Origin: Cloacibacterium sp. TD35
GTDB lineage: Bacteria > Bacteroidota > Bacteroidia > Flavobacteriales > Weeksellaceae
Length of the DNA stretch: 64,000 bases
Reading direction: 5' to 3'
NCBI RefSeq assembly: GCF_028864635.1
Contig: NZ_CP104850.1
Location: 1,928,001-1,992,000 of the forward strand
The position numbers were made by a program, and so were the translations under genes. Each line of letters opens with the position of its first letter. Positions within the stretch are counted from its first letter, which is position 1. Positions 2,371-4,497 of the stretch are shown here, one piece after another. The notes below the pieces were generated by a model. It was given only the letters and a program-made list of their open reading frames with translations. It searched no databases and had not been told where the DNA came from.

Positions 2371-2588
2371 CCTCTCCCTAAAATTGAGCAAATATCTATT
2401 TCATCGTTTGTGTTTGTTTTGTGTGTTTTTATGGGGGAGGTTTTTTTTAATAAGTATTGAGTATAAAGATTAATTGTTATTTGCAATTAAAATAAACTTC
2501 AAAAATTAATTTTTAGATTATTTAATTCACAACAGCAAGTAACATAGTTCTCCAGTTCTTAAGTAATTTGAGGCTGGAGATTATTTTC
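2371..2588 (+). ncRNA. two-hairpin element, copy 1 (candidate small RNA/attenuator)
   Basis: Hairpin A (2371-2448) pairs CCTCTCCC with GGGGGAGG around a long loop and is followed by T8. Its loop contains a 31-nt block (2387-2417) that is 30/31 identical to 3735-3765 in copy 2. A 23-nt block (2472-2494) is identical to 3814-3836. Hairpin B pairs CTCCAG (2550-2555) with CTGGAG (2574-2579), followed by a T-rich run. The order and spacing of the three blocks match copy 2. No ORF occupies the element. It ends 70 bases before the AraC-type gene, so it may be a small RNA, a tandem terminator, or a leader that gates that gene. The strand is inferred from the U-tracts. Confidence 0.5.
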
Positions 2589-2658
2589 AGAGATAATTTT
2601 TAAATTATATCACAAAGACTAATAACTAACAGAGTGTTAATTTTTATATTCAGATTAT

Positions 2659-3543
2659 ATGTCTAGTAATTATTTAGTTTTTAGAAAGATTATCTATCTG
2701 ATTGTCTCTTTTTCTACAATTAGTACTGAAAACCCATGTGAATCTATTCTTCAAAAAGAAAATCTGTATTCGTTTGCACAAAAAAAAGTAAATAGTTTTT
2801 CTACTTTTAAAGAGTCTATTTATCAATATACCCATCATTCTTCCTTCAGTAATATCAAAAACTGGAAGATGACAAATTTTACTTTTTTACAAGACTCATC
2901 TGTAAATGACATCGAAAAAAAATATAATCCTATTTTAGTAAAACATTTCAATGATAGTTTTCACAGAATAGAGTATAACATCAAAAGAAATACTGTATAC
3001 TTTAATATTCTCATCTATTTTTTAATTTATTATTTTTATTGGGATCTCTCAATAAAAATGAGAAGGTTTAAAGTATTTGATTTGTCATCATCTCTCAATC
3101 AGATATTTTCAGAACAAAAAGTACAACCAACAATTAGAATTATTCAAAACGATTCTATAAATGATTTAACCGAAAAATATATTCTCAATGGTTTAAAAAA
3201 TTTCGAGGAGAAAACTATTTTTCTACAAAAGAATATTACTTTAGGAAAGTTAGCTACAGAATTAGACACTAATGTAAAATATTTATCTATTGTAATTAAA
3301 AAGCACAAAGCAGAAAACTTTAACAGTTACGTTAATAAACTAAGAATTAATTACATTACTCAGAAATTGGAAAATGAAAATAACTTTGTAAAATATAAAA
3401 TAAGTCATTTATCTGATTTATGCGGTTATTCTTCGCCAGCAGCTTTTACCAAGTCTTTTACAGAAATCATAAAAACAACTCCTTCAGAATTCATCAGAAA
3501 TATAAAAAAGAAGAGAAATGAAGTAGAATTAGAAACAGTATAA
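2659..3543 (+). CDS. AraC-family HTH protein with membrane segment, shortened sensor region
   Basis: 294 aa. The C-terminal 100 residues form two helix-turn-helix units of the AraC/XylS type (ITLGKLATELDTNVKYLSIVIKK; ISHLSDLCGYSSPAAFTKSF...TTPSEF). A hydrophobic segment lies at about residues 113-128 and another at the N-terminus (about 8-22). Flavobacteria have many membrane-anchored regulators built as signal peptide, TPR repeats, TM helix, AraC HTH. This one keeps the TM-HTH part, but its N-terminal region is only about 110 residues without recognisable TPRs. It may be a decayed or minimal member. It is flanked on both sides by copies of the two-hairpin element, which suggests a regulator plus RNA unit that was duplicated. 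Confidence 0.7.
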   Translation: MSSNYLVFRKIIYLIVSFSTISTENPCESILQKENLYSFAQKKVNSFSTFKESIYQYTHHSSFSNIKNWKMTNFTFLQDSSVNDIEKKYNPILVKHFNDSFHRIEYNIKRNTVYFNILIYFLIYYFYWDLSIKMRRFKVFDLSSSLNQIFSEQKVQPTIRIIQNDSINDLTEKYILNGLKNFEEKTIFLQKNITLGKLATELDTNVKYLSIVIKKHKAENFNSYVNKLRINYITQKLENENNFVKYKISHLSDLCGYSSPAAFTKSFTEIIKTTPSEFIRNIKKKRNEVELETV

Positions 3544-3635
3544 ATAGGTAGTGATTTCTCTTTAATTAAATGTTTTTCCGAATTTGACAAATATAAAACT
3601 TTTTTATCCTAATAAGAATATTTAATTTTATCAAA

Positions 3636-3660
3636 TCAGTAACTAACATACCGTTACTGA
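3636..3660. repeat. inverted repeat TCAGTAAC-N9-GTTACTGA
   Basis: A perfect 8-bp inverted repeat (3636-3643 and 3653-3660) with a 9-bp spacer, lying between the AraC-type gene and copy 2 of the two-hairpin element. The geometry suits a dimeric regulator's operator better than a terminator, because no T-run follows. A related TAACTAACA motif occurs near 2626, upstream of the AraC gene, without the symmetric partner. Confidence 0.4.
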
Positions 3661-3714
3661 AAATTTCAACTACTAAAAATAAACAATTAATATAAAATTA
3701 TTGAATTTTAAATT

Positions 3715-3930
3715 GCCTTCTCCCTTCTAAAGTTAGCAAATATATATTTCATCGTTTGTGTTTGTATTTTTTTGGGAAAGGCTTTTTTAGGTTTTTCACT
3801 TTTCATATAATTAAATTGTTATTTGCAATTAAAATATAACTTCATATAATTTTAATTTTTAATTAGCACATGCAAATAACAAATACTTCTCCAGTTCTTA
3901 AATACAATTTAAGACTGGAGAGTTTTTTTT
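3715..3930 (+). ncRNA. two-hairpin element, copy 2 (candidate small RNA/attenuator)
   Basis: Hairpin A (3715-3788) pairs GCCTTCTCCC with GGGAAAGGC and is followed by T6. The stem differs from copy 1 but still pairs, while the loop block 3735-3765 is 30/31 identical. The block 3814-3836 is identical to copy 1. Hairpin B pairs CTCCAG (3889-3894) with CTGGAG (3915-3920), extended by CTTAAAT/ATTTAAG, and is followed by T8 (3923-3930). Conserved loops with changing but paired stems are what a selected RNA structure looks like. The gene 94 bases downstream encodes a lipoprotein. No coding potential is visible inside. Confidence 0.5.
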
Positions 3931-4023
3931 CAAGCAAGAAAAATTTTATATTTCTGTAATGAAGAAATTCATTAGAAACATTGATTTTTAATCTTTTAAA
4001 TTTTATTAACTTTAAAAGAAAAA

Positions 4024-4497
4024 ATGAAATCTCTTCTTTCTTTATTAATTACTTTTTCCTTTTTGGTTTCTTGCCATAATAAAAGTTCTGAAAACACATC
4101 AGAAATTTCTAAAACGGATACTATTCTTCAAAAAAATGGGCAATTACTTACTTATACTGTATACAAAAAGCCTCTCCTTAAAATGAAAAGAGACCGTAGT
4201 GAATACAGTGAAGCTTATCAAAAAAGAATTGCAAAGTTGGTAGAGTATTACTTAGATAAAAACAACCAAAATGCGGTACAATTTCAACTCAAAAATCCAG
4301 AAGCTCATTTGGGGTATTCTACAGAAGAAACCGAGTGGGAAGGCGTGAAATATACCCAAATTGGACTTTTTACCAAAGGTAAAACCAATATGAAAACTTT
4401 TCAATGGCTTTTTTACAACACCAAGACACAAGAACTTTATGAATTTGATGTTCCTAAAAATACTCCTATCTTATTTTCTTATCAAAAAAATAACTAA
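4024..4497 (+). CDS. hypothetical lipoprotein
   Basis: 157 aa with a short lipoprotein signal peptide (MKSLLSLLITFSFLVSC, lipidated Cys17). The mature protein is charged and has a compact C-terminal region containing YSTEETEWEGVKYTQIGLF and TFQWLFYNTKTQELYEFD, which reads like a small beta-rich domain. I do not recognise a named family. It sits 24 bases before the small membrane protein gene and may be cotranscribed with it. Confidence 0.7.
   Translation: MKSLLSLLITFSFLVSCHNKSSENTSEISKTDTILQKNGQLLTYTVYKKPLLKMKRDRSEYSEAYQKRIAKLVEYYLDKNNQNAVQFQLKNPEAHLGYSTEETEWEGVKYTQIGLFTKGKTNMKTFQWLFYNTKTQELYEFDVPKNTPILFSYQKNN

Follow-up and report, generated by a model that had tools for sequence, protein, structure and literature searches.

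The locus and its genes

The window, i.e. the whole 64 000-nt stretch of DNA that was analysed, covers bases 1928001-1992000 of a 2.6-Mb single-contig genome. At the locus studied here, two similar regions of ~217 bases (copies 1 and 2) lie on either side of a gene for an AraC-family regulator, and copy 2 is followed by a lipoprotein gene at 4024. Both genes have the same strand as the elements and start shortly after them, ~70 nt after copy 1 (AraC) and ~93 nt after copy 2 (lipoprotein). The features, in window positions, are as follows.

2371..2448, + strand: hairpin A of copy 1, arms 2371-2378 CCTCTCCC and 2433-2440 GGGGGAGG, T-tract 2441-2448
2399..2416, + strand: family motif TTTCATCGTTTGTGTTTG of copy 1, in the hairpin A loop
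2476..2543, + strand: middle hairpin of copy 1, GTTATTTGC (2476-2484) with GCAAGTAAC (2535-2543)
2549..2588, + strand: hairpin B of copy 1, TCTCCAG (2549-2555) with CTGGAGA (2574-2580), weak T-tract
2659..3543, + strand: gene for the AraC-family regulator (HTH_18), 294 aa, between copies 1 and 2
3715..3788, + strand: hairpin A of copy 2, 3715-3724 GCCTTCTCCC (one C bulged) and 3774-3782 GGGAAAGGC, T-tract 3783-3788
3747..3764, + strand: family motif TTTCATCGTTTGTGTTTG of copy 2, in the hairpin A loop
3818..3880, + strand: middle hairpin of copy 2, GTTATTTGC (3818-3826) with GCAAATAAC (3872-3880)
3888..3930, + strand: terminator-like hairpin B of copy 2, TCTCCAG (3888-3894) with CTGGAGA (3915-3921), T-tract 3923-3930

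At one locus that both have, the source genome is ~92% identical to Cloacibacterium normanense and is therefore called Cloacibacterium-like. Among six congeners the AraC-type protein has no close relative: matches show 24-40% identity over part of its length, none above 40%. The LolA-like gene left of the locus had no match in the same six genomes at E-values up to 1e-10. The lipoprotein gene is present in five of the six, and the alignment with these five loci starts at 3997-4007, with nothing aligning leftward; the copies and the AraC gene thus belong to a stretch that the congener loci lack, and lie at its right end. In one congener locus inspected, the lipoprotein gene is preceded by a 904-aa gene. 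Flanking genes were considered as a guide to orthologous elements and rejected, since the region left of ~3997 could not be aligned at the five congener loci.

By eye, two short palindromes with TAACTAACA in common were seen on either side of the AraC gene, TAACTAACAGAGTGTTA at window positions 2623-2639 and CAGTAACTAACATACCGTTACTG at 3637-3659; they are candidate regulator sites.

Structure of the two copies

The original prediction, made from sequence, described a duplicated noncoding element with the same order of parts in both copies. Copies 1 and 2 indeed align with 72% identity (E = 7e-29), their parts are found where predicted, and neither has an ORF of 60 aa or longer. Each copy consists of hairpin A, a middle hairpin and hairpin B. 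Hairpin A of copy 1 is terminator-like with a long loop (54 nt) that holds a conserved block, and direct reading confirms this loop block as identical at 30 of 31 positions in the two copies. A 23-nt block is likewise identical (2472-2494 and 3814-3836), a pair of matches with up to three mismatches arising in 0 of 100 shuffles; rather than being a spacer, it contains the 5′ arm, GTTATTTGC, of the 9-bp middle hairpin, which the original prediction had missed. The 3′ arm of this hairpin reads GCAAGTAAC in copy 1 and GCAAATAAC in copy 2, so that a U-G pair stands against a U-A pair.

Folding z-scores of hairpin A are −3.5 and −3.9 for the two copies. The segment of middle hairpin and hairpin B (middle+B) folds moderately better than shuffled sequences in copy 1 (z = −3.7) and far better in copy 2 (z = −7.3). 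Changed but still paired stems had been taken as a sign of selection on RNA. The hairpin A stems, of eight and nine pairs, differ by one double change that needs the bulged C, one U-G/U-A exchange and one extra pair, while in middle+B the copies differ in four of 31 pairs, each time on one side of the pair only. Covariation between two copies is therefore weak, and the conclusion drawn from the stems alone was too strong. In computed folds of the window copies the 3′ half of the motif is predicted to pair with conserved AGCAAATAT just upstream.

Distribution of the composite element

From the window copies we built a covariance model of middle+B and searched with it 320 genomes of the family, which we take to be Weeksellaceae. 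The model recovered its own two copies (E of 1e-24 and 1e-22) and no third one; under stricter filters the next best match in the 320 genomes had E = 0.086. When copy 2 was compared by BLAST with 99 relatives, the matches listed outside its own genome were all shorter than 80 nt, and no match to the element was found in plasmids and phages. As far as tested, the composite element is private to the Cloacibacterium-like source genome. Rfam comparison, suggested earlier with the Flavo-1 motif in mind, gave no family (Flavo-1 included) at its gathering threshold in the window; around the locus there were four weak hits (E from 0.14 to 8.3, far below thresholds), and on 20 related loci only three tRNAs. 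Homologues of the composite were not found in the 320 family genomes; what does recur in the family is the motif in the loop of hairpin A.

A loop motif recurring in the family

The exact 18-mer TTTCATCRTTTGTGTTTK was present in 68 of 76 sampled family genomes, with 1 to 12 sites per positive genome, and in two of 319 genomes from 15 other families of the order (tallies by family made by hand from result tables); both outside matches lack, by eye, an adjacent terminator. The reversed 18-mer gave one match in 395 genomes. With up to two mismatches, the 20-mer ATTTCATCGTTTGTGTTTGT was found in 72 of 320 family genomes, its reversed control (also counted by hand) in 13. In the source genome there are seven exact 18-mers, two of them being the window copies.

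For a 15-mer core with at most one mismatch we counted 275 sites in 15 genomes. The reversed pattern had 24 sites, and a control in which two adjacent letters were swapped had 66; in nine genomes the core had 169 sites vs 79 for a second swap. The swap control is conservative because it shares near neighbours with the motif. Exact matches to the swapped patterns numbered two in 15 genomes (first swap) and four in nine genomes (second swap, three of the four being one orthologous gene), compared with at least 82 exact motif sites in eight genomes.

An exact scan of named genomes for the G form of the motif yielded 16 loci. Three are in Weeksellaceae (Cloacibacterium, Chryseobacterium and Kaistella, the Kaistella site overlapping an ORF); the other 13 were judged by eye to be chance matches. 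Motif loci of Chryseobacterium contaminans and Kaistella gelatinilytica are identical to loci in other family genomes.

As a separate observation, a 19-mer is present in three viral contigs, and in one sequence classed as viral (IMGVR_UViG_2645727825_000001, our locus L320) the motif is followed by a hairpin and a T-tract; spread by phages has also been suggested for the FopS RNAs of Bacteroides (PMC11697453).

Sequences adjoining the motif

Site loci came from eight fully listed genomes, further loci from the scans and some 20-mer matches picked by hand. We kept 142 unique exact sites (24 loci, L081-L104, were left out) and set aside 22 that overlap ORFs of at least 100 aa and two with short flanks. 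The resulting 118 intergenic sites include both window copies, and some of them are orthologous to each other.

A terminator-like hairpin with a T-tract follows the motif at 68 of these 118 sites. Applied further downstream, the same test gave 10 sites; upstream it gave 15 on each of the two strands, and 20 mononucleotide shuffles had a mean of 8.75 and a maximum of 13. At 48 of the 68 sites the hairpin begins 2-4 nt past the motif, and the 68 hairpins represent 55 distinct sequences. No terminator was detected at 50 of the 118 sites. The earlier proposal that the copies may be small RNAs thus gains from a family-wide, mostly intergenic motif found beside terminators, and little from covariation between the copies themselves.

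In the window copies hairpin A, whose arms are GC-rich, encloses the motif instead of following it, the 5′ arm of the terminator ending 20-22 nt ahead of the motif. For copy 1 no terminator hairpin was found shortly after the motif; copy 2 is counted among the 68 sites through an overlapping hairpin scored 10 nt downstream, not through hairpin A. By eye, a Chryseobacterium group of three loci (L107, L109 and L114, only L109 being tied to a name) resembles the window copies in layout, in that the loop is long and the motif is surrounded by a GC-rich stem.

The sequence TAnnTTTG, reported as the −7 consensus of a flavobacterium (PMC9723704), occurs within 160 nt upstream of the motif at 37 of 118 sites; the opposite strand gave 9 and a downstream stretch of 145 nt gave 16. 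Of 39 boxes, 20 sit 20-59 nt upstream of the motif. The remaining 81 sites have no box within 160 nt. A convincing promoter was found at neither window copy. Copy 1 has the box TAAATTTG at 2274, which precedes hairpin A by 97 nt and the motif by ~125 nt; for copy 2, TAAATTGC at 3709 would place the transcription start inside the stem. Neither copy has a TAnnTTTG box 20-59 nt upstream of the motif (copy 2 has none at all), and none lies between hairpin B and the downstream gene in either copy.

Of 66 terminator-bearing sites, 46 have a convergent gene next to them (24 of these within 20 nt) and the other 20 face a same-strand gene; given this predominance of convergent neighbours, most sites look like free-standing sRNAs rather than leaders. 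Upstream, 34 of 67 sites have a same-strand gene, and some sites (L179, L180 and L196) come directly behind a same-strand gene.

At three loci (L140, L143 and L239) the motif follows a hairpin directly, so that the opposite strand reads as seed complement plus terminator. The idea of a sponge RNA was considered here and is not claimed, because the opposite strand, with 15 of 118 sites, gave no more than the same-strand control upstream, which also gave 15.

Several multiple arrangements of the motif were noted in passing. In the source genome, at 2035.9-2036.8 kb (L165:5900-6800), there are two small ORFs whose starts look signal-like by eye. Behind each comes the motif and then a terminator hairpin, nearly identical in both cases, and the arrangement is divergent from a gene of AraC type that has a TPR hit. 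Three congeners (L166, L167 and L168) have two or three units of motif and hairpin beside a similar gene block. Intergenic arrays of four to six motif copies with short spacing occur in other genomes (L172:5486-5820, L254:800-1400, L255:1100-1345 and L170:6300-6680), some with repeated hairpins CAGAGCC..GGCTCTG. A relaxase gene of MobA/VirD2 type carries one or two exact motif complements on its coding strand (L153:944-2434 and L156:947-2419, identified with Pfam, and a similar ORF at L174:4417-5907).

Covariation in a group of 12 sites

We aligned 12 sites from at least two genera, picked by the sequence just before the exact motif (one further match of this filter, L006, was left out), with a structure drawn from one of the sequences. 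The invariance of the 30-nt core proves nothing, as the core was the selection criterion. The terminator stem is paired in 12 of 12 sequences, and four of its 11 pairs show double-sided changes. Pairing amounts to 97.2% in the outer 5′ helix, where two of six pairs have changed on both sides, and to only 68.8% of cells in the inner 5′ helix. For the whole structure 93.3% of cells are paired, vs 30.9-48.1% when the structure is slid along the alignment, and its covariation is 0.308 vs at most 0.104. The number of further pair types was not exceptional (57 of 500 shuffles). Three of four folded members beat all 200 shuffles, while the fourth, L181 of the source genome, was matched by three; the motif is mostly single-stranded in the predicted folds of all four. 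The modelled anatomy is that of short RNAs with an intrinsic terminator.

Antisense match to gene starts

Read in antisense, the motif is exactly AAACACAAAYGATGA, a sequence with which some genes for apparently secreted proteins start. At 18 of the 142 sites an antisense ORF of at least 40 aa starts in the motif, some of these being spurious extensions. Nine gene starts that we picked in relatives of the source genome are perfectly complementary to the consensus RNA over 16-24 nt. Six of the nine proteins, including the CsgE protein and the aspartyl protease named below, have a signal-peptide-like beginning by eye. Pfam was run on seven of the nine proteins: L226 is a CsgE curli protein, L119 an aspartyl protease and L207 an HRDC protein, L128 had a BclA_C hit below the curated cut-off, and no Pfam domain was found in L148, L164 and L217. 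The other two of the nine are L129 and L221, the L221 start resembling the L207 start.

Judged from translations, there was no gene start among the six exact matches to the swapped patterns; these were two controls only, and it was the motif that led to the gene starts. The matches may also be compositional, because start regions in the phylum are A-rich. According to a published account of translation in Bacteroidota (PMC6847099), starts have no Shine-Dalgarno sequence and are tuned by adenines at −3, −6, −12 and −13, so that an RNA with the motif sequence would cover the critical window. As evidence of pairing, gene-start complementarity among sites collected in this way is suggestive and not proof.

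Possible function and alternative explanations

Our leading explanation, held tentatively and with a little less than even confidence, is that the window copies are variant members of an undescribed family of paralogous sRNAs that would work in the manner of FopS. A typical member would have a 5′ stretch or small hairpin, a single-stranded seed UUUCAUCRUUUGUGUUU and, after it, an intrinsic terminator. With a seed that is the antisense of AAACACAAAYGAUGAAA, the RNAs would most likely pair with some mRNA start regions. Several presumed target mRNAs encode secreted proteins, and the start regions of putative pairing hold AAACACAAATGATGAAA; pairing there might block ribosome entry, as FopS does in Bacteroides. 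Each window copy would be a transcribed noncoding unit, with terminator-like hairpin A around the motif and hairpin B at the end. Both copies would carry the seed of the multicopy family, which has named intergenic sites in Cloacibacterium and Chryseobacterium. By their motif the copies are likely members and by their layout a variant, and since the seed lies inside a terminator loop with its 3′ half predicted to pair with AGCAAAUAU, the variant may be partly caged.

The association with hairpins could instead mean that the motif is a termination site, read by a factor or by RNA polymerase before the hairpin, with A and B merely insulating the AraC gene. We regard this as rather unlikely. It would suit the 68 sites followed by a hairpin, those that come directly behind a same-strand gene (L179, L180 and L196) and the same-strand upstream gene at 34 of 67 sites; however, with 1 to 12 exact copies per positive genome the motif is far rarer than the expected terminators, 50 of 118 sites have no detected terminator, and the antisense match to gene starts would be left unexplained. 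A DNA target of the AraC protein, duplicated for autoregulation, was among the original suggestions. The copies do flank the gene, and another motif pair in the source genome is also near an AraC-type gene, yet 68 of 76 family genomes have the motif while none of six congeners has the protein at >40% identity, and terminators accompany 68 of the 118 intergenic sites. This suggestion has found little support, and we think it highly improbable.

Also proposed at the outset was a cis-acting leader, in which A and B would be alternative terminators, those of copy 1 in the 5′ region of the AraC gene and those of copy 2 in that of the lipoprotein gene, with an exchange of partners through a GCAAAUA/UAUUUGC switch. 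The position of the window copies, ~70 and 93 nt before same-strand genes with no TAnnTTTG box between B and either gene, is what such a leader would have. On direct reading, GCAAATA of loop A is complementary to TATTTGC of the middle hairpin, a pairing that could free the motif; the minimum-energy folds of the window copies do not choose it and use local pairings only, and it would leave the outer stem of A untouched. No Rfam family matches, and terminator-bearing sites of the family mostly face convergent genes (46 of 66). A leader is thus conceivable for the window copies and does not fit most family sites; on balance we consider it unlikely.

Within the sRNA explanation, a more ambitious picture, which we put forward as a conjecture somewhat on the doubtful side, is that of a family-wide regulon with up to about a dozen paralogous sRNAs per genome and a seed antisense to A-rich starts of surface-protein genes that lack a Shine-Dalgarno sequence; in one species the seed would have moved into a terminator loop, been duplicated on both sides of a regulator that has no close relative in six congeners, and been caged by a complement within the RNA, which would make it switchable.

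Comparison with known systems

To our knowledge, little is known about post-transcriptional control in Flavobacteriia. In the excerpts that a literature search returned there was no mention of the motif or of a comparable sRNA family in Weeksellaceae. If our explanation is true, the clade-wide seed would give a handle on a regulon spanning Chryseobacterium and its relatives.

Ordinary terminators have short, unconserved loops. Hairpins A and B resemble intrinsic terminators in having stems followed by T-tracts; hairpin A of copy 1 differs in its 54-nt loop with a conserved block.

Two systems were compared by their published descriptions. The sRNA Rfp18 of Flavobacterium psychrophilum (PMC9723704) is also a structured noncoding RNA, from a related flavobacterial family, with predicted pairing to protease mRNAs; it is described as a single sRNA rather than a multicopy one, with the pairing in its third stem-loop. 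The closest known system is FopS (together with GibS) of Bacteroides, whose RNAs are bound by the RRM-1 protein RbpB (PMC11697453). In Bacteroides thetaiotaomicron, 14 paralogous FopS sRNAs have a shared seed that covers the start region of a susC mRNA, and they bind RbpB. As is proposed for the present family, these are multicopy short RNAs (12-15 per genome there) with a conserved seed and a variable 3′ part, in the phylum Bacteroidota; they are mostly intergenic, with one 3′-UTR member, and pair next to the start codons of surface-protein mRNAs (PMC11697453). FopS differs in being described from Bacteroidaceae (PMC11697453), whereas transcription and targets of the present family are predicted from sequence, and the window variant differs from FopS in having the motif in a terminator-like loop. 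If the likeness to FopS holds, multicopy sRNAs that pair at start codons would not be confined to Bacteroides.
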